IMG/VR virus record: IMGVR_UViG_3300036466_000209
Span: 1-36,204 of that record
Direction: 5' to 3' (one strand)
Length of the DNA: 36,204 nucleotides
Source: a virus
Shown here: one piece after another, positions 3,788-21,703 of the stretch
Position numbering within the stretch: the stretch's first letter is position 1
How the letters are laid out: each line of letters opens with the position of its first letter
Made by a program: the position numbers and the translations under genes
Notes under the pieces: generated by a model
The model's input: only the letters and a program-made list of their open reading frames with translations
Told to the model about the DNA's origin: nothing
Databases searched by the model: none

Positions 3788-4672
3788 ATGACTACTATTA
3801 TTGTATATCATAAAGACTGTATGGATGGAGTGGCTTCAGCCTTTATTACTGATGCTGCTTTACCAAAAGACACTGAAAGAGAATTATTACCTATTCAGTA
3901 TGGTGAAGAAGAAAAACTATTTGATAAACTTAGACAACTTGATTATGATGTATCTGTAATTATGGTAGATTTCTCATTTAAACAAAAAGAAATGTCTGAC
4001 TTATTATTTACAAGTGTGGAAGTTACAGTTATTGACCATCATGCGACTGCTTGGCAAGAGTTAGAACCATTAATTCAAGAACCAAACTTTACTTTTCATT
4101 TTAATAATGAAAAGTCTGGAGCTACACTAACTTTTGAAATATTCAAAGCCAAACATGGGTTACGTAATGGTCTATTTAATTATATTGAAGATAGAGATTT
4201 ATGGAAATGGAAATTAGCTTATTCTAAAGAAATTTCAGAATACTTATCTTTAATTGTTAAACCTAATGATATTGAATCTTTTAAAGAGGCTTATGAACTA
4301 TTTAATAAAGATACTAAAACATTTGTTAAAAATGGGCAAACTCTACTTTTAAAAAAACAACAGTCTGTTAATGCTAAAGTTAAAAAAGCTCAAGAAGTTA
4401 CTATTAAGAACACATCTTTCATGTTAATTAATGCAACAGAAAATGTGTCTGAACTTGGTAATGAAATTGCTAAACACTTTAATAAACCAGCTTGTATATT
4501 TTTCTTTGCAGAAAACTTCAAAGTAGTTTTATCATTCAGATCTACAGATGAACTACCTTCAGTATCAGATATTGCTAAGCAATTCCCTGGTGGTGGTGGA
4601 CATAGAAATGCTGCTGGTTGTACTATAACTTTAGATGAATTATCTAATATTATAGGTACTAAACGTAAGTAG
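3788..4672 (+). CDS. DHH/DHHA1-family phosphoesterase
   Basis: 294 aa. The N-terminal DHH domain shows HKDCMDGVAS (Asp10, Asp13), IMVDFSF and VIDHHAT (Asp83-His84-His85), the residues that bind the catalytic metal pair. The C-terminal DHHA1 substrate-binding motif is GGGGHRNAAGC (residues 268-278). This is the layout of NrnB/NrnA-type enzymes, which cut short RNA oligonucleotides, pAp or cyclic dinucleotides. SD AAGGAG precedes ATG 3788. In a phage it could recycle nucleotides from degraded RNA or destroy host defence second messengers; both are inferences. A stem-loop follows the gene. Confidence 0.9.
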   Translation: MTTIIVYHKDCMDGVASAFITDAALPKDTERELLPIQYGEEEKLFDKLRQLDYDVSVIMVDFSFKQKEMSDLLFTSVEVTVIDHHATAWQELEPLIQEPNFTFHFNNEKSGATLTFEIFKAKHGLRNGLFNYIEDRDLWKWKLAYSKEISEYLSLIVKPNDIESFKEAYELFNKDTKTFVKNGQTLLLKKQQSVNAKVKKAQEVTIKNTSFMLINATENVSELGNEIAKHFNKPACIFFFAENFKVVLSFRSTDELPSVSDIAKQFPGGGGHRNAAGCTITLDELSNIIGTKRK

Positions 4673-4680
4673 TTTTTTGA

Positions 4681-4699
4681 GAGGGTATTTTGTACCCTC
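4681..4699 (+). terminator. Intergenic stem-loop, possible weak terminator or processing hairpin
   Basis: GAGGGTA - TTTTG - TACCCTC is a perfect 7-bp stem nine bases after the DHH stop. No U-tract follows directly (AATTAAAAATT), while T residues precede it, so it is not a textbook intrinsic terminator. It may instead stabilise the upstream mRNA end. Confidence 0.45.
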
Positions 4700-4726
4700 A
4701 ATTAAAAATTAATTTAAGGAAGAAAA

Positions 4727-5905
4727 ATGACTCAAAACGAAAGACTAATTATCACACAAAACATTAAAGCACAACTTGATGGAGCTCCAGTTGCACCAAT
4801 TTGTGTTAGTGGACATCCAGGAACTGGAAAGTCTACTATTGTTGAACTTATTGCTAAAGACTTGGACATGAATTTTACTAATGATTCAGCCCCAACAATG
4901 ACACACGAGATTTTAAGTGGTTTACCAGATACTGTTGATGCTCCAGAATTTCAAAACATTTCTTTAGACCAATCTGTTCCAAAAGCAACTCAATGGTCTA
5001 TTCCAGAAATGATAGTAAAAGCTAGTAGACTTGCTAAAGAAAAACCTACAGTGCTTTTAGTAGACGACTTTCATATGGTAAGTCCTCATTTACAAGCATA
5101 CTTTTATGGTCTTTTATTAGAAAGAAGACTTGGGAATTATAAATTACCTAGTAATGTTGCAATTGTACTTACTATGAATGACTCTGAATCAGCTGGATTT
5201 GGTGGTATTAATTCTGCAGTTCGTAATAGAATGGCAATATTAAGAGTTGAATTCAACTTTGATTATTGGTTATCATCATATGGTAACAGACTACATTATT
5301 TAGTAGCTTCCTTTTTAAAAACAAAATCAAATTATTGTATGGAAGAAGAATCAACTGGAATTATTGGATACGCAACTGCTAGAGCTTGGACTGCTATTGC
5401 TGCTGAATTGAAATATCATACTGATGACTTTATATTATCACAATCATCTATTATTGCTGGTATGCAAGTATCTCAAGAAGCTGCAAGAGCATTTCAATTA
5501 CATGTTAACTATATATCAGCAATTGACTTTACAAGAGTAGTTGCTAACAAAGAATTAACAGACTTATCTTCTAAAGATCCTTTAGATTCAATTATTTATG
5601 CATATATCACTAACTTTATTTATACAGTTGATGATGGTTTATATTTATTTAAATTGATGAGTAAAAATATTGGGCAATCTGCATTCATTGGATTTATTCT
5701 TGGAGAATTATATATTAAGTATACGAACCAAGATGATGCACCATTGTCTGAAGGTTTAACTTTCATAATAGATAGATTATTGTCTAGTCCAATGGATAAA
5801 TCTAAATATGAACAAACTTCTTTACCAAAACTTGAAAAAGCTTTTGAAGAACCGATTGAGAATTTATCTGAGTTTATGGAAAAAGCTTCAGAATATCTTC
5901 TCTAA
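4727..5905 (+). CDS. MoxR-type AAA+ ATPase
   Basis: 392 aa. Walker A is GHPGTGKST (residues 29-37). Walker B is VLLVDDFHM (Asp113-Asp114, where Glu is usual at the second position). A sensor-1-like VLTMND lies near 150 and an Arg-finger-like GINSAVRNRM near 162-171. MoxR ATPases act as chaperones with a VWA-domain partner, and the next gene encodes a VWA protein, so the pair probably works together (established for the family; inferred here). It could remodel a phage or host protein complex. SD AAGGAAG precedes ATG 4727. The C-terminal 150 residues are helical and unassigned. Confidence 0.88.
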   Translation: MTQNERLIITQNIKAQLDGAPVAPICVSGHPGTGKSTIVELIAKDLDMNFTNDSAPTMTHEILSGLPDTVDAPEFQNISLDQSVPKATQWSIPEMIVKASRLAKEKPTVLLVDDFHMVSPHLQAYFYGLLLERRLGNYKLPSNVAIVLTMNDSESAGFGGINSAVRNRMAILRVEFNFDYWLSSYGNRLHYLVASFLKTKSNYCMEEESTGIIGYATARAWTAIAAELKYHTDDFILSQSSIIAGMQVSQEAARAFQLHVNYISAIDFTRVVANKELTDLSSKDPLDSIIYAYITNFIYTVDDGLYLFKLMSKNIGQSAFIGFILGELYIKYTNQDDAPLSEGLTFIIDRLLSSPMDKSKYEQTSLPKLEKAFEEPIENLSEFMEKASEYLL

Positions 5906-5926
5906 GGCCCTAATTAGCCATTTTTA

Positions 5927-5935
5927 TGGTATAAT
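5927..5935 (+). promoter_or_regulatory. Extended -10 promoter upstream of the VWA gene
   Basis: TG-G-TATAAT (5927-5935) is a perfect extended -10 element in the 58-base gap between the MoxR and VWA genes. A T-rich stretch lies just before it and no good -35 hexamer is seen, which is usual for extended -10 promoters. It would start transcription about 20 bases before ATG 5964. It suggests the VWA gene can be transcribed separately from moxR by host RNA polymerase. Confidence 0.55.
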
Positions 5936-5963
5936 TATATAATTAATTAACAAAGGATAATTT

Positions 5964-7376
5964 ATGAAAAAACAAGAATTTTTACATGAAGCAAGTCATT
6001 ACATTTTTAAAGAAGTAGCAAAAACTACCAACTTATTGTGTGGACTTAGTAAAACATCTTCTATGATTGCAAATTTATTTGCTAATCTTCCATTAAAAGT
6101 TGAAGCAAGGTATATTGAAACTATGCCAAAACCTTCTAAAAAACTAAACGCACTAGATGAATTTGTACATGCTTATATCAAGCATGATGACTCATCTGTA
6201 GTGTATATTGCTTTCTTTTATTCTGATGAAAAACATTTCAAAAGAATTATGTCAGCAATTAAAAAACACTCAGAATTTTTTGCTTATATATATATGAGAG
6301 AAGCTCTTAAACTGGTTCGTTTGATGAACACAAGGACTCATTATACAATGATGTCTGGAATTATTAAACATAACAACCCAGGAATTTCTGTTGAAAGCTA
6401 TTATAGATTAAGCCAGACAGCTTGTAACTATGTTATCAATTCAACTATTAAAGAACTATTTGATGGTTCTAAAGTTAGTAGTAAAGTTGATAAAATTCTT
6501 GAAGGTCAAGTATATGATGCTAAATACCATAAGATGTCAGAAATGGATGTGCTTATAGATATTATTACTATAGACCATGAAGCTACTCCAACTATTACAA
6601 AACTTGATGAGCAATTTTCTTATGATGAATGGTCAAATATGGTATTTGATAATACAAATGGAGCAATTAATACTGATGAATCAATTATAACAGATTTAGG
6701 TGAATCAGTATCAACACAACTTGCTAGTATGGGTAGAGGTGGTGCTTCTGAAGCAATATTCTCAGAATTTTTTCAAGCTAAAAAAGTAAAAACTGGATGG
6801 TTTAAAAAACTTGCTGCTAAATTTAGTAGAGAAGTGTATTATATGACCAACACATTTACATCACAATGGTCTTCACTTAATGTGACTTATAGACACAAAT
6901 TTAAAGCACCAAAAGCTAAATATGAGGACAACAAATTATCTGTTGTACTTTCTGTTGACCATTCTGGGTCAGTTTCAACTGATGGATTACAAAAATTACT
7001 TTACCTATTTGAGAAACACTCAAAAAAGATTACTCAGTTATTTGTACTAGTACATGATACTGAAGTAGTTAAACAGTTCACACTTGAATCTGACTATGAC
7101 ATTAAGTCTAACCCACAATTTGTGGAAGCTTTAGCTCATAGATTTGCTGTTGGTGGAACATCTCATTTTGATGTATTCAAAAAAATTAATGGAATGTTAA
7201 AAGATAAAACAATTGATCCAGAAAAAACAATTTATATATCATTTTCTGATAACCATTCAGATATTCCGGCATCTTGGAAAGAATTTCCAAAACTTAAAAA
7301 ATTACAAACAACTTTCTTAAGTCCAGTTAACAATCCAGTTAACGTGCCAAATACAACTGATATAACAATGCAATAG
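5964..7376 (+). CDS. VWA-domain protein (DUF2201/CobT-like MoxR partner)
   Basis: 470 aa. The C-terminal VWA domain has the MIDAS metal site: VDHSGS (Asp332-His-Ser334-Gly-Ser336), a candidate Thr in GGTSHFD (399) and Asp429 in FSDNHSD. The N-terminal two thirds are helical, as in DUF2201 proteins that pair with MoxR ATPases. A HEASH string at residues 8-12 matches HExxH, but not at the place where DUF2201 proteins carry it; the equivalent region seems degenerate (YMREALKLVRLM). SD AAAGGA precedes ATG 5964, and an extended -10 promoter lies in the gap upstream. It is probably the partner of the upstream AAA+ ATPase. The target is unknown. Confidence 0.85.
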   Translation: MKKQEFLHEASHYIFKEVAKTTNLLCGLSKTSSMIANLFANLPLKVEARYIETMPKPSKKLNALDEFVHAYIKHDDSSVVYIAFFYSDEKHFKRIMSAIKKHSEFFAYIYMREALKLVRLMNTRTHYTMMSGIIKHNNPGISVESYYRLSQTACNYVINSTIKELFDGSKVSSKVDKILEGQVYDAKYHKMSEMDVLIDIITIDHEATPTITKLDEQFSYDEWSNMVFDNTNGAINTDESIITDLGESVSTQLASMGRGGASEAIFSEFFQAKKVKTGWFKKLAAKFSREVYYMTNTFTSQWSSLNVTYRHKFKAPKAKYEDNKLSVVLSVDHSGSVSTDGLQKLLYLFEKHSKKITQLFVLVHDTEVVKQFTLESDYDIKSNPQFVEALAHRFAVGGTSHFDVFKKINGMLKDKTIDPEKTIYISFSDNHSDIPASWKEFPKLKKLQTTFLSPVNNPVNVPNTTDITMQ

Positions 7377-7403
7377 CAACTCACACGGGTAACCGTGTAG
7401 TTG
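7377..7403 (+). terminator. GNRA-capped hairpin after the VWA gene (terminator or processing site)
   Basis: CAACT-c-ACACGG-GTAA-CCGTGT-AGTTG forms an 11-bp stem with one bulged C and a GUAA (GNRA) tetraloop, starting at the base after the stop. It is followed by TTATATT, a weak U-tract. It is probably a 3'-end hairpin of the upstream transcript. Confidence 0.55.
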
Positions 7404-7441
7404 TTATATTAGCATATTACTAATATTTTAATCTAACAACT
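7399..7441 (+). promoter_or_regulatory. Alternative hairpin overlapping the terminator-like stem and the next leader
   Basis: AGTTGTTA (7399-7406) pairs with TAACAACT (7434-7441), and TATTAG pairs with CTAATA inside. The left arm reuses AGTTG, the 3' strand of the preceding hairpin, so the two structures exclude each other. The right arm abuts the AAGGA SD of the gene at 7453. This resembles an attenuator-type switch, but no function is shown. Confidence 0.35.
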
Positions 7442-7452
7442 AAGGACAACTA

Positions 7453-8472
7453 ATGTACACAGCTCAACAAGTAGCATCAGAAATAGAGCAAATTAAACCA
7501 AATTTTACAGAATTTATAAAATGGTTAAAATTTGGTAAATCTGAAAAATTACTAGAGGATTTTAACAACACAAAAAATATGTCTGTAAAATTGTTCAAAG
7601 CCCAATTAATCATAATCACTTATCAAACACATAATCAAATGTATGCTTATTCATCTTATTTAAATACCTTTGCTCAACTATTACAAGATAATTTAGATAA
7701 ATCTGGAGTTATTCAAAGTGCAAATGCTTACAGTAATTATACATATTTTAATTACTCAGGCTACACTATATCTAATTCTTTTAAGGAACAGCATATAGCA
7801 AACTATATTACCGATGTTAAAAAATACTTAACACCTTATTTATGGAATAAAATAAGAGTTAAGACTAGTAAATCTGTTGATTTTAAAGAATTAAAAGAGG
7901 ATTTATTTTGTTTAACAACTTTTAAAAATTATTTAGATAACTTAAAAACTAAACTTCCATCAACTCAAGTTAAAATTTATGTTGAACAAATTAAAAATTT
8001 TAAAGTAGACATAAAACAACAATATTTAGATTTATTATTAGGTCATGTTGGAATTCCCTCAATTGACTTACAAAAATCTTTATATTATCTTATCCCAAAC
8101 CAAAGTCATGACAAAATTGAAAAATTTATGGAGTTAGGTACTAAACGGCAAATTCAAAACTTAGCAATTAAAAATGGTATTCCGGTACCTGCTTCATTGT
8201 ATGATGATAGAGAATCTGATTATAAACCATTTATAACTAACACTAAGCGTAAACCAACTACAGATATACCTAATATTTCTTATTTAGTTGGAACAGCATA
8301 TTTATTAAAAGTGCTAGATAGATTAGAACCAAATCCAGTATACGCTTATTTTGTAGAACAAATTAATGAACATCTTAAAGAACCTGAGTATGGAGAACCT
8401 TTAAAAATTTACTTAGCAAGTTTAAAAACAACCAGTGAAGTTTTAGGAGAGTATTGCGATGGACTTATTTAA
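7453..8472 (+). CDS. Unknown protein (339 aa)
   Basis: SD AAGGA (CTAAGGACAAC) precedes ATG 7453. The protein is Lys, Asn, Tyr and Ser rich, mostly helical, with no Cys-rich site, P-loop or signal peptide. A run of Tyr/Asn/Ser residues (AYSNYTYFNYSGYTISNSF) lies near residue 95. The helical C-terminal part ends SLKTTSEVLGEYCDGLI. It overlaps the next gene by 14 bases, so the two are probably coupled. No family is recognised. Confidence 0.8.
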   Translation: MYTAQQVASEIEQIKPNFTEFIKWLKFGKSEKLLEDFNNTKNMSVKLFKAQLIIITYQTHNQMYAYSSYLNTFAQLLQDNLDKSGVIQSANAYSNYTYFNYSGYTISNSFKEQHIANYITDVKKYLTPYLWNKIRVKTSKSVDFKELKEDLFCLTTFKNYLDNLKTKLPSTQVKIYVEQIKNFKVDIKQQYLDLLLGHVGIPSIDLQKSLYYLIPNQSHDKIEKFMELGTKRQIQNLAIKNGIPVPASLYDDRESDYKPFITNTKRKPTTDIPNISYLVGTAYLLKVLDRLEPNPVYAYFVEQINEHLKEPEYGEPLKIYLASLKTTSEVLGEYCDGLI

Positions 8473-9157
8473 ATATACAACTGCAATTAAAGAGATTGAA
8501 TTAACTAAAACTGTTAGTGGCTTAGAAGCATTAATTAGACACTATATTAAGTTGCTTCCAAGTAATTATTCACATATAGAAAATATAGACATATTTTATT
8601 ATAAACTATTAGCTTTTTCACTTAATAGATTTGATTTAAAATCTAGTAGAACTTTACCTGGATTTATTTATGATTGTAAAAAGTATACTCAAAACAAATT
8701 ATTAATATCTATTTTTGAAGTACATTTGCCAAATTATAAAAAGAATTATAAGTATTCTCCTATTTTTTCTAAAACACCAACATATACTAAGTTTATGGAC
8801 ATATTTGAATTTGATACTAATATAAGTCTTCCGCACTCTACATGGTATATAGTTAAATTAAATGAAATTATTGATAATAACCCAATTCACTTTACTGTGG
8901 AGTTTAATTATTCAAAAGATTCTTTTGAAAACTACTCAACTGATTTACATCCAAATATACAAACTTTAACTTATGCAATTAGATATAAGCAAGTGAATTT
9001 TCCTTATAAAGAACAAACTATTTGGGACTTATTTCTTAAAGATTGTAGGGATGCTGTATCTAAATTTCCAACAGAAACACAGTTAAAAGAGCAAACTTTA
9101 AAACTTCAACAACAAATTACTGCTCTTAATAGTTTAAAGGATTATATTAATGTCTAA
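8459..9157 (+). CDS. Unknown protein (232 aa)
   Basis: It starts at ATG 8459 inside the previous gene, with GGAG 8-11 bases upstream (TTTTAGGAGAGTATTGCG). The N-terminus MDLFKYTTAIKEIELTKTVS recalls the start of the unknown gene at 15164 (FFKYMSLLAKLESIKG), so the two may be distant paralogues. The C-terminal helix (ETQLKEQTLKLQQQITALNS) is likely coiled coil. It overlaps the nuclease gene downstream by eight bases. The function is unknown. Confidence 0.78.
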   Translation: MDLFKYTTAIKEIELTKTVSGLEALIRHYIKLLPSNYSHIENIDIFYYKLLAFSLNRFDLKSSRTLPGFIYDCKKYTQNKLLISIFEVHLPNYKKNYKYSPIFSKTPTYTKFMDIFEFDTNISLPHSTWYIVKLNEIIDNNPIHFTVEFNYSKDSFENYSTDLHPNIQTLTYAIRYKQVNFPYKEQTIWDLFLKDCRDAVSKFPTETQLKEQTLKLQQQITALNSLKDYINV

Positions 9158-9647
9158 TTCTGAATCTTTATTACAAATGACATTTGTTTCTACTTGTAGA
9201 ACTTTATACCCAACATTGGTTATGAACTTATCACTTAATGGTATTTCACTTAATGGATTAACACCAATCCAAAAGTCACAACTTATCACACAAGCTAAAC
9301 GGGAAGGTATGGAGAATGGTGTACAGGATTTATCTATTTATTTGCCAGAATCCCAAATCCTTAACCTTGAGTTTAAACGACCTAAAGGTGGTAAGCAAAG
9401 TCCTGACCAAGTAGTTATTGAATCTAAGTTGAAAGAATTAGGACATAACTATTATTTAGTTAGAACACCAAAACACTGTTTTGAACTTATTGCAAAATAT
9501 ACTTCAGTTGAGTTTAGACAATCTCAATTTGATGCTTTAGTCATACCAAGTTCTAACGGAGTATTGACTAAAAAGTTTTTATACTTTACCAAAGGAACCA
9601 AAGTAGAATTTGTTGAAGCCCAACTTAAAGAATACTATTTTATTTAG
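9150..9647 (+). CDS. VRR-NUC-like PD-(D/E)XK nuclease
   Basis: 165 aa. Residues 55-85 read NGVQDLSIYLP then EFKRPKGGKQSPDQ. This matches the VRR-NUC pattern of D...ExK (Asp60, Glu74, Lys76) followed by G-x-Q-S-x-x-Q. It continues ELGHNYYLVRTP, the usual last strand of the fold. Such small phage nucleases cut branched or modified DNA, or act in recombination. It lies between two unknown proteins and a nucleotidyltransferase. Its start overlaps the upstream gene by eight bases and has AAAGGA upstream. Specificity cannot be read from the sequence. Confidence 0.8.
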   Translation: MSNSESLLQMTFVSTCRTLYPTLVMNLSLNGISLNGLTPIQKSQLITQAKREGMENGVQDLSIYLPESQILNLEFKRPKGGKQSPDQVVIESKLKELGHNYYLVRTPKHCFELIAKYTSVEFRQSQFDALVIPSSNGVLTKKFLYFTKGTKVEFVEAQLKEYYFI

Positions 9648-10240: not shown

Positions 10241-10730
10241 ATCGGGGCGAGTCAAATGTCCCTCATGCCGAGAGCCTAAGTGATAGGATTTGAAAAAGCG
10301 GATTGTAAAACCAGTAAGACTGTCTTCCATAAGACATAAACGGGTGGTTGTTAAGCCATTCAAAGAATTTAGCACGTTCCTAAGTACGTACCTACAAACT
10401 TATACAAGCAATGTATACATGGAGCTACTTATGCCGAGATCGAGTACGGTGGCTCTAGTGTGTATATGGCCTGAGATGGTCAAGATTTATCCCTCAAAGA
10501 TATACAGTATTTTAGGAAAATGAACTTATTATATTGGCAAATTTACTATATTGTAGTAAGTATTTATACTTTCCTGGACTAACGAGTGGTGTCGAGAACA
10601 ACCAGTATATAGTAACTCATTAAACCGCACCTGTGTCTATATTTGATGTACTAGATGGAATGTAATAAATTACACGAATAGTGAGTTGATAGAATGGTTT
10701 AATATACTTCCCACACTCATTGCCATTTAT
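10241..10730 (+). ncRNA. Non-coding stretch with dense potential RNA structure (island 1, left part)
   Basis: This 490-base gap lacks a convincing gene: short frames here have a different composition, many stops and no SD. It is less AT-rich than the coding DNA. Helices I can trace by eye include 10411-10467 (listed separately), TTTAGGAAA pairing with TTTCCTGGA (about 10510-10576), TAAcGAGT with ACTCaTTA (about 10580-10622), and a T-arm-like GATGG-TCAAGAT-TTATC (about 10475-10491). Together with the downstream tRNAs this suggests a transcribed array of structured RNAs. Exact boundaries are uncertain. Confidence 0.5.
10411..10467 (+). ncRNA. Long imperfect hairpin in island 1
   Basis: Bases 10411-10429 pair with 10448-10467. 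GAGCTAC/GTGGCTC forms the core, then a bulged G, then TGTATACA against TGTGTATA with G-U pairs: about 19 pairs, five of them G-U. The inner loop holds CCG-AGATCGAGTA-CGG. The many wobble pairs suggest selection on RNA rather than a DNA palindrome. The function is unknown. Confidence 0.4.
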
Positions 10731-10840: not shown

Positions 10841-10940
10841 GAATACTGTAAGCAAATGTGGAAGAGCAGAGCTAGACAGCTCGAATATACAGCGTCCTAG
10901 GTAAGACTGTATTTTGTTGGTTCGACTCCAACCAGTATTC
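10841..10940 (+). tRNA. tRNA-like gene with an enlarged middle; anticodon unclear
   Basis: The acceptor AATACTG/CAGTATT (7 bp, or 8 with G10841-C10940) and the canonical T-arm GTTGG-TTCGACT-CCAAC define a tRNA top half. The 67 bases between them exceed even class II tRNAs. They form GAGCT-AGAC-AGCTC (a 4-base loop, not an anticodon loop) and an outsized variable-type arm AATATACAG/CTGTATTTT. No 7-base loop with T33 in the right place could be found. It could be a class II tRNA with an oversized arm, an intron-containing tRNA, a degenerate gene, or a tRNA-like RNA with another job. Confidence 0.5.
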
Positions 10941-10955
10941 ACCCTATTTAACCAT

Positions 10956-11047
10956 CGAGGTTTGCAAGTGCCGTCTCAGCAGCAAACGTATAACTTGTTA
11001 ATCTGATTAATTAACAACAAGCATTGGTGCAATTCCAATCGCCTCGA
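10956..11047 (+). tRNA. Candidate tRNA-Ile(GAT)-like gene with expanded arms
   Basis: The acceptor CGAGGT/GCCTCG has six pairs. A D-like arm is TTTGC/GCAAA with a 16-base loop. The anticodon arm TTGTTAAT/ATTAACAA is eight pairs instead of five, with 7-base loop CTGATTA (T33, anticodon GAT, but T rather than a purine at 37). The T-arm is ATTGG-TGCAATT-CCAAT, with G where T55 is normal. Discriminator A; no encoded CCA. At 92 bases it is longer than a normal class I tRNA. It may be functional but divergent, or tRNA-like. Confidence 0.45.
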
Positions 11048-11053
11048 CCTTAT

Positions 11054-11130
11054 GTACTGTCTAGCTAGTCGCTAGGTTGGGCTTACTTTCATATAGTAAC
11101 GATACACTGGTGCAATTCCAGTACAGTACA
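11054..11130 (+). tRNA. tRNA with CAT anticodon (Met, or Ile2 if modified)
   Basis: The acceptor GTACTGT/ACAGTAC has seven perfect pairs. The anticodon arm TTACT/AGTAA carries loop TTCATAT (T33, CAT, A37). The T-arm is ACTGG-TGCAATT-CCAGT with the same unusual loop as the preceding gene. The D-arm is weak (GCT/GGC with a GG-containing loop). A73; CCA not encoded. Length 77. Whether it reads AUG or, after lysidine modification, AUA cannot be told from the sequence. Confidence 0.7.
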
Positions 11131-11159: not shown

Positions 11160-11249
11160 GTATATAAATAGACAGTCTGAGAGTCGTATTCTAGAGTTCA
11201 CATTAGCAGGCGATACTAGCTATTAGAAGAATTAAACTTTTGAACAAAC

Positions 11250-11333
11250 AATCAATTGATGGAACAAAGTATCTTTGCTGAGTACAGTTATGTAGGTTGG
11301 ATTCCTACCTTACTTTGTTCTAGTGAATTGATT
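11250..11333 (+). ncRNA. Tiered hairpin with T-arm-like loop, leader of the gene at 11346
   Basis: AATCAATT (11250-11257) pairs with AATTGATT (11326-11333). GAACAAAGTA (11262-11271) pairs perfectly with TACTTTGTTC (11311-11320). Inside are CTG-AGTA-CAG and a T-arm-like GTAGG-TTGGATT-CCTAC (11292-11308) two bases before the 3' strand. It resembles an acceptor plus T-arm with the middle of a tRNA missing. It ends 12 bases before ATG 11346, close to its AAAGGA site, so it could be a separate RNA or a translational control element. Confidence 0.55.
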
Positions 11334-11345
11334 TAAAGGAATATT

Positions 11346-16752: not shown

Positions 16753-17019
16753 ATGATAAGAACAGTAGACGAAGCTTATGGAACAGACGCAGATGGAAAC
16801 CGTGGAGTTACAGCAATATCCTATGAATTATCTGATGATGACACACCAGAAATAGAATCTCAAATTACAGAATTCATAGAATCTACTGGTGAACTACCAG
16901 AAAAACCACTTATTGTTCGGTTAATTGATCCAATAACAGCAGAAGATGTTGAATTTGAAGTAGATCCATTTTACTATATACCAAAAGTTAAAATGGAAAC
17001 TTATATTAAGGAGAATTAA
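16753..17019 (+). CDS. Small acidic protein (88 aa)
   Basis: ATG 16753 is three bases after the nuclease stop, with GAGGA overlapping that gene's end. The protein is strongly acidic (YELSDDDTPEIESQITEFIE) and ends FYYIPKVKMETYIKEN. The middle (PLIVRLIDPITAEDVEFEVD) looks like a small beta domain. It shares one base with the DNA polymerase start. It could be a small polymerase or nuclease accessory protein, but only position supports this. Confidence 0.7.
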   Translation: MIRTVDEAYGTDADGNRGVTAISYELSDDDTPEIESQITEFIESTGELPEKPLIVRLIDPITAEDVEFEVDPFYYIPKVKMETYIKEN

Positions 17020-19682
17020 TGACAATACTATTAACCGAACTACCAGAAAACTACGAAGCTTCTATTAAAGCCCAAGTACTGGAAAGATTTGGTGTTGAAA
17101 ACCCTAAGTTTATTATTCGTATGATACACCAATTACATCATTCAGACCTTGGATATGAAATCCATGGATTACAAGAACCTATTGTATGTGATTATTGGGG
17201 AATCAAAGATGACTGTATTATTAGAGTTGATGATTGTTCTGATGTATCAGCAATCGCAGAGATTGTAGCATCTCAATATATTGAGCCAGTTGTACATTTC
17301 TGTGATGAGCTAGAGGTCGCTAAACGATGGTTGAACCGCTACAATTCTGATTTCCATACAGTAGCAGTTGACTTTGAAGCAAAGGATTTAACTTTACCTC
17401 AATTCAACGAACTTACTATGTTGTCTATTGGATGGAACTTATTAAAGTCTACTGTTATTGTGTTTAAAGACCAAGCTATTAGGGATTATGTACTTAACTG
17501 GTTAGTTACTACTGAAATACGACAAGTTTGGCATAATACTTTATTTGACCTTAAATTTATTAAGTATCATACTGGCAAATTACCAAAGAACATTGAAGAC
17601 TCACAACTATTAGCAGCAGTTTACAACAACAATGTAGACTCTATGAAACGTAAGTCCGGTCTTAAAGGACTTTCTGGAACACTTTATCAAGATTGGGCAA
17701 AAGATAAATCTTCATTTGACTTATATGACACTGAAGGTAATGAATTTGTAACCAACCTGAACTATGTGGGTTCTGGAGATCCAAGCATTTATAATTTACG
17801 ACTTATTAAGTATGCAGGTATTGATACACCAGCAACTAAGCTGGCTTTTGAAAAGTTCGACAAAGAACCGGCCTATCCAAATCATTGGATACCACAAACT
17901 TCTGAGCCTAGACACAATACTGAACAATTTAACCAACGTTATTACTATGAATTTATTCTCAAACCAGCAATACCAGTTATTGTTGAGATGATTATGAATG
18001 GTCAAGCAATTGATTTGGATAAAGTTGACAAATTAAAAGCAGAAGTTGAACAGTTTAACAAAGAAACTCTTGAAACTATTAGCAGTATTCCAATTGTTAA
18101 GGAATTTCAAGACAAAGTTGACCAAATTCGTATTGATAAGTTACTAGCACCAATACAAAAAGCAATGAAGAAACCTAAGTATGAAGGTTACAAGAATACT
18201 GTAGCTATGAGGACTTGGATTGTTAATCATTACGCTGGAACTACTCATGACAAAGTGACGGCTGTTATGCTAAAAGATATTGAGGCACCTATTGCTAAGT
18301 TATTACTTGACAAAGCTTTTGAGGATACTTTAGTCAAAGCTGGAGCAGACTTGTATGAGGAAGCTGAATGTCTTAGACAGAACACCAACGCTAATCGTAT
18401 TGACAAGATTAACAATCCAGAAAAGTATACACAAGTAGGATTTAACCCTTGGAATTACCAACAACTCAAACAAATGTGGATATCTTTTGGGCTAACTTCT
18501 TACAAAGTATCTAAAGAAACTGGTGAAATGTCATTTGATTCTGATGTGCTTAAAGAACTATCTAAAACAGCAACTGGTGACCCTCAAAAAGTCATTAAGC
18601 TTTATTTAGAAGTTGCACAGTCTAAAAATATGATTACACAGTATATACCAAAATATTATGGTTCTACTGTTAATGGTAGACTACATTATGCTCTTAAGCT
18701 AATGGGAACTTTTACAGGCAGATTATCTGGTAAAGCAGGTGGCGATAAACTTGAAGCTCCAATGAAACATCAAATGGGAGCTAATGGAGTTACCCAACCT
18801 GTTGGACATAGAGTTTATGGTAAGACTGTTAAGTCTATGTTTGTAGCACCTAAAGGTCGTATTTTAGCAGCATGTGATTACAACGGATTGGAAAACCATA
18901 TTAATGCCTGTTTAACTAAAGATGAAACAACTATTAAGTTATTAAGTCCAGACCCAGAAACTGGATTGATGTGGGATATGCACACATTACATAGTACTAT
19001 TTTCTTCAAAGAAGAATGGGAAGCTATTACTGGTCAACCATTTGAGAACACTATCCAGTATAACAACATGTGTTACAAATTAACTGATGAGAACTCAGAA
19101 GCTTCAGCTTTACGTTCTAAGTCTAAACCCATAACCTTTAAATTAGCTTATGGAGGATTCCCAGACTCACACAAAGGTGGGGTTATTACTCAAGCAATTT
19201 TTGACAGATACCACACTGAGTTATACCCAGGTGTTACCAGATTTAGGGAAGACTATGTTATCCCAACTTCACAAGACCAGAATTATTTACATCTTAACTG
19301 GGGACTTAGAGTTTATTCCAGTAACCCAAAAGGTGATTTACTGGCATTGAACAACGCAAATTTCCAAGGCTATTCGGATTTAACTCTGATTGCTGGAACT
19401 AAGTTTAGGGACAAGTATTTAGCTGAAGGTAATCCACACAACATAATGGGATTGAACATCATTCATGATGCACTTTACTATGAATTGGATGACACACCAG
19501 AAGCAATTAAGTGGGTCAATGACAACCTTATTGCAACTATGGTACCAGATTTTCTACACAACCAAACTGTTCATTTAAGAGCAGAATGTGACTTCGGATA
19601 TAATCAAAAATCTATGGTAACTATGCCAAACAACGCAGATTTACCAACAATTGTTAATAAATTAGCAACTTTAAAGGACTGA
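17019..19682 (+). CDS. polA: Family A DNA polymerase with 3'-5' proofreading exonuclease
   Basis: 887 aa; no 5' nuclease domain. The exonuclease motifs are VDFEAKDL (Asp118, Glu120), WHNTLFDLKF (His172 to Asp177) and YAGID (Tyr265, Asp269). The polymerase motifs are: A, CDYNGLENH (Asp620); B, RSKSKPITFKLAYG (Arg699, Lys703, Phe707, Tyr711); C, IIHDALYYE (His816-Asp817). All catalytic residues are present. The residue equal to position 762 of E. coli Pol I is Phe. The N-terminal 110 residues before the exonuclease are unassigned. SD AAGGAG precedes ATG 17019. It is the replicative polymerase of this phage, acting with the primase-like protein, helicases and SSB-like protein encoded downstream. 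Confidence 0.97.
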   Translation: MTILLTELPENYEASIKAQVLERFGVENPKFIIRMIHQLHHSDLGYEIHGLQEPIVCDYWGIKDDCIIRVDDCSDVSAIAEIVASQYIEPVVHFCDELEVAKRWLNRYNSDFHTVAVDFEAKDLTLPQFNELTMLSIGWNLLKSTVIVFKDQAIRDYVLNWLVTTEIRQVWHNTLFDLKFIKYHTGKLPKNIEDSQLLAAVYNNNVDSMKRKSGLKGLSGTLYQDWAKDKSSFDLYDTEGNEFVTNLNYVGSGDPSIYNLRLIKYAGIDTPATKLAFEKFDKEPAYPNHWIPQTSEPRHNTEQFNQRYYYEFILKPAIPVIVEMIMNGQAIDLDKVDKLKAEVEQFNKETLETISSIPIVKEFQDKVDQIRIDKLLAPIQKAMKKPKYEGYKNTVAMRTWIVNHYAGTTHDKVTAVMLKDIEAPIAKLLLDKAFEDTLVKAGADLYEEAECLRQNTNANRIDKINNPEKYTQVGFNPWNYQQLKQMWISFGLTSYKVSKETGEMSFDSDVLKELSKTATGDPQKVIKLYLEVAQSKNMITQYIPKYYGSTVNGRLHYALKLMGTFTGRLSGKAGGDKLEAPMKHQMGANGVTQPVGHRVYGKTVKSMFVAPKGRILAACDYNGLENHINACLTKDETTIKLLSPDPETGLMWDMHTLHSTIFFKEEWEAITGQPFENTIQYNNMCYKLTDENSEASALRSKSKPITFKLAYGGFPDSHKGGVITQAIFDRYHTELYPGVTRFREDYVIPTSQDQNYLHLNWGLRVYSSNPKGDLLALNNANFQGYSDLTLIAGTKFRDKYLAEGNPHNIMGLNIIHDALYYELDDTPEAIKWVNDNLIATMVPDFLHNQTVHLRAECDFGYNQKSMVTMPNNADLPTIVNKLATLKD

Positions 19683-19858: not shown

Positions 19859-20020
19859 ATGAAACGATATTTAGTAGCATTACCTATCTTTAGAGGCAGT
19901 AAGGGATTTTGTCACCAAACTATTTTAGTTAGTGCTAAAGATTTACCAGATTGTATCTCTTTAGTACATCATCTAAGACCTAATAGGAACATTGGGGAAA
20001 TTAAGGAAATTGACTATTAG
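19859..20020 (+). CDS. Small unknown protein (53 aa)
   Basis: ATG 19859, one base after the preceding TGA, is chosen because AAAAGGA lies 5-11 bases upstream; an in-frame upstream TTG would overlap the zinc-ribbon gene. MKRYLVALPIFRGSKGFCHQ, then TILVSAKDLPDCISLVHHLR, is a compact beta-alpha design. It is the last gene before the second RNA island, and a hairpin starts at the second base after its stop. Confidence 0.65.
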   Translation: MKRYLVALPIFRGSKGFCHQTILVSAKDLPDCISLVHHLRPNRNIGEIKEIDY

Positions 20021-20021
20021 G

Positions 20022-20046
20022 CCATCAACGATTGACAAGTTGATGG
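20022..20046 (+). terminator. Perfect 8-bp hairpin after the polymerase operon
   Basis: CCATCAAC-GATTGACAA-GTTGATGG starts at the second base after the stop of the 53-aa gene. No U-tract follows (TAAGTAGG), so it is a terminator-like or processing hairpin rather than a classic intrinsic terminator. Its 3' strand is also used by the alternative helix at 20041-20104. Confidence 0.5.
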
Positions 20047-20104
20047 TAAGTAGGCTCTTAATAGGAGGCTCTCCTAACAGGAATGAAAATTAGCCTTTAC
20101 ATCA
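20041..20104 (+). ncRNA. Bulged helix with inner hairpin (alternative to 20022-20046)
   Basis: TGAT-g-GTAA-gt-AGGCT (20041-20056) pairs with AGCCT-TTAC-ATCA (20092-20104): 13 pairs with two bulges. Inside is TAGGAG-GCT-CTCCTA (20062-20076). Because TGATGG is shared with the preceding hairpin, only one of the two can form at a time. Confidence 0.45.
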
Positions 20105-20132
20105 GAAGCCTTAAAGAGCAAGGGAAAGGCAG

Positions 20133-20247
20133 GTAGTTAGTAATTTATAAGACAGGAATAAAGCCGCCTGCAGTACTAAGGTTCAGAGGACGATATCGTC
20201 CCAGAAGTGTACTTAACCAAGTTGTAACCGGACCAATTACTAACTAC
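20133..20247 (+). ncRNA. Structured RNA closed by a perfect 13-bp helix
   Basis: Bases 20133-20145 (GTAGTTAGTAATT) are the exact reverse complement of 20235-20247. The enclosed 89 bases contain GGACG-ATAT-CGTCC (20188-20201), extended outward by TTC/GAA and AGTAC/GTACT. GCAGG (20129-20133) can pair with CCTGC (20167-20171), which would interleave with the 13-bp helix as a pseudoknot. The composition is richer in G+C than the flanking genes and I see no coding frame. Class unknown. Confidence 0.55.
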
Positions 20248-20251
20248 TACT

Positions 20252-20309
20252 TATAGAGATGAGCCAGAATGGTAGCCGTAATTGGCAATAGTGGTTCGAT
20301 TCCTCTGTA
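20252..20309 (+). ncRNA. Compact tRNA-like element
   Basis: TATAGAG (20252-20258) pairs with CTCTGTA (20303-20309). Inside are a D-loop-like AGAATGGTAG, a GCC-GTAATT-GGC hairpin and a T-loop TTCGATT on a short GTGG/CC stem (20291-20303). At 58 bases it is too short for a normal tRNA and lacks a 7-base anticodon loop. It may be a truncated tRNA or a tRNA mimic. Confidence 0.35.
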
Positions 20310-20317
20310 GATTAATA

Positions 20318-20335
20318 GGTGGGTTCGAGACCACC
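20318..20335 (+). ncRNA. T-arm-like hairpin without an identifiable tRNA body
   Basis: GGTGG-GTTCGAGA-CCACC is a perfect 5-bp stem with a TTCGAGA sequence in an 8-base loop, the hallmark of a tRNA T-arm with one extra base. No partner for the following AACTCGCC was found at the expected distance upstream, so a complete tRNA could not be built. Confidence 0.35.
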
Positions 20336-20345
20336 AACTCGCCTT

Positions 20346-20398
20346 AGAGCAGCAATGAGAATATTAGTTGTATCCAATGTTATTCTCTTTGGTGTTCT
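20346..20398 (+). ncRNA. Long hairpin, 16 of 18 positions paired
   Basis: Bases 20346-20363 (AGAGCAGCAATGAGAATA) pair with 20381-20398 (TATTCTCTTTGGTGTTCT), with one G-U pair and G-G and T-T mismatches. The 17-base loop contains TTG-TATC-CAA. This length is not expected by chance in so short a span. The function is unknown. Confidence 0.5.
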
Positions 20399-20404
20399 AC
20401 GACT

Positions 20405-20436
20405 AGTGGTACAGTCTGTGTGAGTCAGACAGCACT
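20405..20436 (+). ncRNA. Hairpin with a 7-base loop
   Basis: AGTG/CACT encloses GTCTG-TGTGAGT-CAGAC (20414-20430). The 5-bp stem and 7-base loop copy the geometry of an anticodon arm, and a D-arm-like ACT-AGTGGTAC-AGT lies just upstream. The loop lacks T33, so it is not a standard anticodon loop. Confidence 0.4.
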
Positions 20437-20472
20437 TATTTAACAGTTAAAGAAAACAGCTTTCTCTCCTTT

Positions 20473-20528
20473 TGTCGGAAGGTGGGAGTGTGTACAAGTT
20501 ATGGTAAGAGTCCATTTACCTTTCGACA
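20473..20528 (+). ncRNA. Hairpin closed by an 11-bp helix with T-arm-like inner loop
   Basis: TGTCGGAAGGT (20473-20483) pairs fully with ACCTTTCGACA (20518-20528), with one G-U. Inside, ATGG-TAAGAGT-CCAT (20501-20515) sits two bases before the 3' strand, the same plan as the element at 11250-11333. Unknown structured RNA. Confidence 0.5.
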
Positions 20529-20535
20529 TCTTAAG

Positions 20536-20607
20536 GCCCGAAAGCGTGTAAGTTGTGTTAGTATGACATACGTCGGGAACGTAGTCAGTTCGAGGCTGAC
20601 AGGGCAA
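20536..20607 (+). ncRNA. tRNA-like element with class II-type variable arm and T-arm
   Basis: TACGT-CGGGA-ACGTA (20569-20583) abuts a perfect T-arm GTCAG-TTCGAGG-CTGAC (20584-20600), the order seen in Leu/Ser/Tyr tRNAs. Upstream GCCC and downstream GGGC can close a short acceptor of only four pairs. A GTGT/ACAT arm is present but without a usable anticodon. It is probably a degenerate tRNA or a tRNA mimic. Confidence 0.45.
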
Positions 20608-20610
20608 ATT

Positions 20611-20721
20611 TTAATATACCTATGAGAGCACATTAGTAAAGTGATTGCATGAGTTAGGGTCGCAACCTAGACTGTCACTTACTAGCAGATTAATTACCTG
20701 GTGCTTTCTTAGGTATATTAA
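20611..20721 (+). ncRNA. Long three-tier hairpin (20 outer base pairs) upstream of the gene at 20746
   Basis: TTAATATACCTA (20611-20622) pairs perfectly with TAGGTATATTAA (20710-20721). After a T-T mismatch, GAGAGCAC pairs with GTGCTTTC (one G-U). Next comes TAGTA-a-AGTGA (20634-20644) with TCACTTACTA (20675-20684), and at the centre a T-arm-like TTAGG-GTCGCAA-CCTAG (20654-20670). It is the strongest structure of the window and ends 24 bases before the GTG at 20746. It could be an independent RNA or a leader element. Confidence 0.6.
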
Positions 20722-20745
20722 CCAATAATTTTGTAAGGATACATA

Positions 20746-20943
20746 GTGAACAAATTAACACCAAGACAAGTTTATAATTTACTGTATACAGTAACTAAAC
20801 ATGACAACAAACATTTAGGTGAAGACAAATCTAGTAGAGTAGCAAATATTTATGCTGTAAAGGCTACTTGGACAGTTTATAACAATCCAAGAGAGTACTT
20901 AAGATTTGTTTCGGCTTTATTGAGAATTTATAATATCAATTAA
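20746..20943 (+). CDS. Small unknown protein (65 aa, GTG start)
   Basis: GTG 20746 is preceded by TAAGGA at a usual distance. MNKLTPRQVYNLLYTVTKHD, then NIYAVKATWTVYNNPREYLR, is a helical basic protein without known motifs. It is the first gene after RNA island 2; the long hairpin ending at 20721 lies in its leader and could affect its expression. It is followed by an A-rich 33-base gap. Confidence 0.65.
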   Translation: MNKLTPRQVYNLLYTVTKHDNKHLGEDKSSRVANIYAVKATWTVYNNPREYLRFVSALLRIYNIN

Positions 20944-21223: not shown

Positions 21224-21703
21224 GTGAAATTAATTTCAGAAAGAGTGGATAAACTCATACAAGAGAACAAACCTTTACAGGTACATATTGGAAATCATTG
21301 GGTTGATTTTGATGGAGAAGCATATGAATTATTAAAATTTCATCGCTCAGATATTAGAGAAAAACCAGAAAAAGATTTTACTATAAGTGAGTGGTGGATA
21401 CCATTTAATAACACAGAACCTGTAAAACTGACACAAGAGAATATAGTTCATTTTATTGGAATTAAACCTTATATGCAATACACAGAAGCAAAGCTATGGA
21501 GGCCAAATGTGAATGAGTGGTGTTGGAAGAAATATTATGGCTTAGTTAAAGTTATAGAGATTAACCATTATTCTGATGTAGGCACCTTGTACATAATAGA
21601 ATCATTAAGAGCTAATGAAGCCTACCATTTAAATCCTTGTTCACTTAATTCCCTGGAGCCTTTTATAGGTAAACTACCAACATTTTTAAAGGAACAAAAT
21701 TGA
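21224..21703 (+). CDS. Paralogue of the 14547 protein (159 aa, GTG start)
   Basis: GTG 21224 with AAAGGA eight bases upstream is preferred to an in-frame TTG inside the previous gene. The protein shares its plan with that from 14547: PVKLTQENIV, LWRPNVNEWCWKKYY and the ending FIGKLPTFLKEQ. It is shorter at the N-terminus. The Trp/Pro/Glu-Trp-Cys signature suggests a small beta domain. The last bases contain AAAGGA for the TTG start of the next gene, which overlaps by four bases. Function unknown. Confidence 0.75.
   Translation: MKLISERVDKLIQENKPLQVHIGNHWVDFDGEAYELLKFHRSDIREKPEKDFTISEWWIPFNNTEPVKLTQENIVHFIGIKPYMQYTEAKLWRPNVNEWCWKKYYGLVKVIEINHYSDVGTLYIIESLRANEAYHLNPCSLNSLEPFIGKLPTFLKEQN

Follow-up and report, generated by a model that had tools for sequence, protein, structure and literature searches.

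Comparative evidence for a compact phage RNA family in a mosaic of structured units between replication genes

The tRNA arrays of phages carry stable RNAs that are not tRNAs. T4 stable RNA species 1 and 2 (rnaC and rnaD) are small non-tRNA RNAs of the phage tRNA cluster (PMC3014915), and the phage RNAs GOLLD and ROOL often occur close to tRNA islands (PMC12286853). The locus described here lies in a 36,204-nucleotide viral sequence (IMG/VR record IMGVR_UViG_3300036466_000209), all of which was analysed and is termed the window; the host is probably a bacterium. This locus contains a structured element, designated M1, that is distinct from each of these RNAs. T4 rnaC ends in an acceptor and a T-arm, as do units in another structured region of the window (island 1), whereas M1 has neither. 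Neither rnaC nor rnaD is an M1 member, the best score in their region being 11.8 bits on the other strand with filters off. GOLLD and ROOL are several hundred nucleotides long and have other structures, while M1 RNAs span 55-118 nucleotides and have no covariance-model match to them. M1 shares with tRNAs its place in tRNA arrays, where some neighbouring units retain an acceptor/T-arm half, but it lacks D-, anticodon- and T-arms and differs in its linker and conserved loops. Bacterial Y RNAs (YrlA) have a closing stem and, in some members, a tRNA-like part. A Y RNA reading of M1 gained no support, since M1 has no Rfam match and its phage records contain no Ro60/TROVE protein; that search covered phage records, possibly fragments, and a host-encoded Ro60 would escape it.

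The window encodes a family-A DNA polymerase (17019-19682) with about 30% identity to the enzymes of Alteromonas phages AD45 and PT11-V19, and a primase gene begins downstream at 21700. The interval between them holds two small ORFs, the region studied here (island 2, 20021-20745) and further small genes. Island 2 is a non-coding gap of 725 bases that separates the two replication genes, with the polymerase operon upstream and a small gene at 20746 downstream. It contains no ORF of at least 60 amino acids, and its GC content of ~0.41-0.43 compares with 0.25-0.35 in adjacent windows. All island 2 features given below are on the + strand.

Island 2 folds with a predicted minimum free energy (MFE) of -223.9 kcal/mol, corresponding to a z-score of -5.3, or -5.9 with 30 shuffles. 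The latter value lies beyond those of all 45 other 725-nucleotide windows (mean -1.6, lowest -4.9), and the opposite strand scores -4.1. Tiles of 180 nucleotides cut the helices and give a modest signal, which indicates that the folding signal resides in whole elements. The long helices described in the first-pass annotation are real, with arms at 20133/20247, 20611/20721 and 20337/20407; two contiguous helices of at least 12 base pairs within 130 nucleotides are seen, compared to 0.05 expected from shuffling. That annotation also listed three T-arms with a TTCGA loop, of which only one is canonical (20584-20600, GTCAG.TTCGAGG.CTGAC). In the TTCGATT hairpin near 20296 one stem pair is broken, and the T-arm claimed near 20323 has an eight-nucleotide loop, the MFE structure instead forming a 9-bp helix, AGGTGGGTT/AACTCGCCT. 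T-arm-type hairpins with five pairs and a seven-nucleotide T-loop occur twice where 0.04 are expected (P ~7e-4). The annotation had found no complete tRNA in island 2, and ARAGORN, Rfam and a cloverleaf criterion agree.

No Rfam 15 family, GOLLD and ROOL included, matches island 2 at gathering score. A relaxed search of 19950-20800 returned two rejected matches below that score, one to isrC (20435-20554, 23.8 of 39 bits) and a chance hit to Vimentin3. Blastn against 50,697 phage records, queried with island 2 and with three M1 loci, gave nothing beyond chance; the one hit, 25 bases long and to phiKZ-like phages (E 3), was dismissed on the same ground.

M1 occupies 20133-20247, with a covariance-model core match at 20138-20242. 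Its outer helix P1 joins 20133-20145 to 20235-20247 with 13 of 13 positions paired. Across the family, P1 is free in sequence, varies from 8 to 18 bp and encloses a compact core of ~25 invariant positions in the order UNAAGACAG...AARCC...CUGCA...ACCGG. The 5' core (20146-20171) reads UAUAAGA-CAGG-AAUAAAGCCG-CCUG-C, is near-invariant in the alignment of ten sequences and contains the P2 hairpin (20153-20156/20167-20170). The inner three pairs of P2 are invariant, and the fourth is G-C, A-U or U-A depending on the member. A variable arm, P3 (20172-20213), consists of an AGTAC/GTACT stem and an extra hairpin, GGACGATATCGTCC, and is missing from the minimal, 55-nucleotide member (L095). The CGG of the conserved 3' core (20222-20234, TTGTAACCGGACC) may pair with the CCG of the P2 loop in a predicted pseudoknot, which is unproven because this pairing is almost invariant. 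Since neither the inner P2 pairs nor the pseudoknot vary, the support from covariation falls mainly on P1, on P3 and on the fourth pair of P2. Independent predictions for two phages give the same fold (z -3.6 and -4.0); folding of the minimal member alone is not significant (z -0.9).

Two M1 copies were compared in an alignment that MAFFT had misaligned, and for which variable inserts were trimmed and the structure was named by hand. In it, seven pairs carry double-sided changes and none is broken, while slid controls collapsed. A covariance model (R1, built from the two sequences), searched over 507 kb, recovered both known copies and a third in contig L041 (E 1e-7, a rough value given a short Infernal calibration). 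The L041 copy lies directly 3' of the polymerase gene (65% identity) and 5' of a homologue of the window gene at 20746 (58% identity). The same gap there holds M1 only, which makes M1 the core that this locus conserves.

A 5'-core pattern was scanned through 2.9 million viral contigs and matched 45 loci, two of which are known copies (L042, equivalent to G005, and L087, the L041 contig). Nine of the remaining 43 fit the structure and 3' core, scoring 29-70 bits with R1; the pattern included neither the 3' core nor P1, and both are nonetheless present in all nine. L064 scores 17.9 bits with R1 and was accepted at 28.2 bits on a second model, R2, which was built partly from L064 itself. Two candidates were rejected, L071 as coding-like on reading and L091 as coding-like, repeat-rich sequence with no model match. 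Members are defined by a helix, P1, that closes AAGACAG..CUGCA and ACCGG cores, all of which the window copy has; it scores 93.6 bits with R1 and 31.7 with R2, having helped build both. The family thus comprises ten distinct sequences on 13 viral contigs, window counted. Every member other than the window was found directly or indirectly through 5'-core similarity, on contigs that are fragments, and the invariance of the 5' core is partly imposed by this selection.

The ten-sequence alignment, which was fitted to the structure, has standard pairs in 97.8% of pair cells. Double changes occur at 11 of 17 pairs, in 38 cells. None of 500 shuffles reached the observed cell, type or covariation values, and three reached the pair count. 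In P1, seven of the eight modelled pairs show double-sided changes across the ten sequences, with as many as four or five pair types at a single pair. This variety, together with slid controls that were at most 41% paired, argues against a fitting artefact. Judged by this comparative evidence, M1 is a real RNA family.

The family also appears to be new relative to Rfam 15 and the open-access literature compared. Rfam 15 matches none of its members above chance. In 84,980 prokaryote genomes the 5'-core pattern found 71 loci and no credible members; the best reached 24 bits, the ACCGG box or P1 was imperfect, and these loci were treated as chance. The M1 model had no credible match in AD45-P4, PT11-V19, R22Y, Mel-JY01, immuto, LR756508, LysYB1, Vibrio 2.275.O or T4.

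M1 tends to be a neighbour of tRNA genes. ARAGORN finds a tRNA within 1 kb in seven of the 12 other M1 contigs versus one of 33 pattern-only controls (Fisher P 1e-4) or, counting distinct sequences, beside four of nine (P 0.005). The sole such control is the repeat-rich coding sequence L091. Four contigs (L073, L088, L093 and L075) place M1 2-4 nucleotides after tRNA-Thr(UGU), and L055 places it 7 nucleotides after tRNA-Ile. In L058/L068 a tRNA-Met is 0.4 kb away, among aberrant tRNA-like units. A tRNA-like unit ending CCACCA stands just 5' of M1 in G005, and T-arm units lie 3' of it in L064. No tRNA is found near M1 in L041, L054 or L095; in L095, M1 sits ~30 nucleotides 5' of a recA-like gene, a placement that would also fit a cis-acting element. 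M1 is on the strand of its neighbours in every case read and is single-copy in each of the records that were searched whole. Its contexts, which include tRNA arrays and positions ahead of a recA-like gene or a small gene, share no downstream gene, which argues that M1 is not a riboswitch.

M1 is consistently in the sense orientation and tends to lie near tRNAs, which favours a stable RNA released together with them. M1 would be co-transcribed with its neighbours, often tRNAs, and freed by the usual processing of the tRNA or RNase III type. It would then persist as a stable RNA, and during infection its invariant core would serve as a binding site for the translation machinery or for a protein of host or phage. 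Such action in trans is a plausible assignment that we offer tentatively.

M1 might instead act in cis in transcript processing, perhaps as a self-cleaving ribozyme of a new kind, by cutting polycistronic phage RNAs so that tRNAs and mRNAs are separated. A compact core of ~25 invariant positions inside a closing helix of free sequence, with a possible pseudoknot, has the look of such an RNA. So does the position of M1 between co-transcribed genes (L041, L095) or tRNAs (L073, L055) with no common downstream gene. However, Rfam ribozyme families do not match it even at relaxed thresholds, and P1 exceeds the length that self-cleaving RNAs usually need. We regard a processing element as unlikely, and slightly more so the specific proposal that M1 is a small self-cleaving catalytic RNA of a new class, which phages would use to separate tRNAs and mRNAs.

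As to the remainder of island 2, local alignments against shuffled controls indicate that the region is a mosaic of separate units rather than a single RNA, and that some units are common to different relatives. At its 5' end, E1 (20016-20076) has a TCAAC/GTTGA hairpin followed by a TAG..CTA stem and is common to relative L007 (5473-5533). The two share 85% identity, above every shuffle, and the element has a z-score of -3.0. In L007, E1 stands alone, adjoining tRNA-Ser, and part of M1 (20149-20233) matches a 1.25-kb island elsewhere in the same phage (G005). Downstream of M1, a tRNA-like segment (20250-20312) with the imperfect TTCGATT T-arm and no canonical cloverleaf (z -2.4 for 20250-20319) has no homologue among the relatives compared. 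It is followed by a long hairpin (20337-20407) whose 27-nucleotide arms, 20337-20363 and 20381-20407, are 78% complementary (z -3.3 for 20320-20410), by a T-arm-like hairpin with a TGTGAGT loop (20414-20430, GTCTG.TGTGAGT.CAGAC) and by another long hairpin (20473-20528) with arms TGTCGGAAGGT.. and ..ACCTTTCGACA (z -2.6 for 20446-20530).

E3 (20535-20606) is a tRNA-like three-way element that includes the canonical T-arm and is common to L001 (9512-9586). The homology covers 20527-20606 and falls in the same polymerase-primase gap of L001. A pair of the T-stem differs between the two, reading C-G in the window but T-A in L001, and the z-score of E3 itself is only -1.3. That gap in L001 also matches E2 of island 1 (10548-10610). 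The last unit, a 3' domain (20611-20721), is the strongest single element (z -5.9). It is closed by a ~20-bp helix with 21-nucleotide arms (20611-20631/20701-20721) that are 90% complementary, and it has no convincing homologue. A similarity of 20625-20756 to G003 is doubtful, the same G003 stretch fitting island 1 better. The separate homologies of E1, M1, E3 and E2 show that these units move and are kept independently, like tRNA genes. Most parts of island 2 other than M1 have no homologue, and none of its other units was convincingly found at M1 loci, the sole hit being the recA-like coding sequence of L095.

The T-arm-like hairpins, far above chance in number, and the units of island 1 and relatives with intact acceptor/T-arm but altered lower halves could mark island 2 as a graveyard, or a workshop, for degenerate tRNA genes. 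Yet M1 has no tRNA plan and is conserved over distant phages, which is not expected from decay, and the conservation of E1 (85%) and E2 (81%) exceeds the 71-76% identity of alignable coding DNA of these relatives, so that we consider this explanation improbable. A single large ornate RNA of the GOLLD/ROOL type, suggested by the size and dense folding of island 2, by its origin in a phage and by the tRNA neighbourhood (PMC12286853), is very improbable, as GOLLD and ROOL are unmatched in an Rfam search at E up to 10 and the units occur apart, M1 alone in L041, E1 by tRNA-Ser in L007 and E3 with E2 in L001.

Several further features of island 1 and of the relatives were recorded. Positions 11053-11130 of the window form a near-canonical tRNA with anticodon CAU that ARAGORN missed. 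It has a 7-bp acceptor, a 5-bp anticodon stem with a TTCATAT loop, a T-arm (ACTGG.TGCAATT.CCAGT) and an unusual D region. Two tRNA-like units, 10841-10940 and 10954-11047, combine a perfect acceptor/T-arm with altered lower halves, a plan comparable to T4 rnaC; the second has an 8-bp anticodon-like stem. E2, TTTCCTGGACTARCRAGTGGTGTYGAGMACAACCAG, is highly conserved with compensatory stem changes between 10548-10618 of the window and 9432-9502 of L001, at differing genome positions, and further copies were not found. The 3' end of island 1 (11185-11345) is conserved in G003 and G005, where it precedes the same gene, keeping an outer hairpin, AATCAATT/AATTGATT, while the inner helix is replaced. 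In L001, an 8-bp acceptor-like stem, GTACATTA/TAATGTAC, surrounds two successive D-arm and T-arm units in a doubled-tRNA-like arrangement (9290-9413). The polymerase gene of L001 is interrupted (5001-8850, with ORFs 5001-5525 and 6802-8850 and a 261-amino-acid ORF, 5583-6368, between them), as with an intron or intein. L022 has a structured non-coding island of 1.25 kb (4308-5560) that holds M1 and aberrant tRNA-like units (4919-4990 and 5424-5505), and L058 (4780-5450, - strand) arrays such units around one ARAGORN tRNA-Met.

Island 2 is therefore read as a cluster of independent RNA units that includes a new family, and we are confident of this part. The combined explanation, in which this cluster carries a trans-acting M1, is probable on balance. 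From islands 1 and 2 together, the first-pass annotation had suggested a small-RNA family, structured and specific to one group of phages. Homologues of E1, M1, E3 and E2 and the covariation of M1 bear out the family, and the restriction to one group is wrong for M1, which is present in phages of clearly different kinds, several of which have complete tRNA arrays. Relatives lacking the helices had been named as evidence against it; most of the other helices are indeed absent from every relative examined, and M1 is shared.

To the stable non-tRNA RNAs of phage tRNA arrays, represented by rnaC/rnaD, GOLLD and ROOL, M1 would be a compact addition whose members are many and unrelated, whose core is sharply delimited and whose minimal form has 55 nucleotides. 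Its small size puts structure determination, pull-down and cleavage assays within reach, so that the role of such phage RNAs becomes directly testable. Its discovery also suggests that the annotation of phage tRNA clusters overlooks RNA genes.
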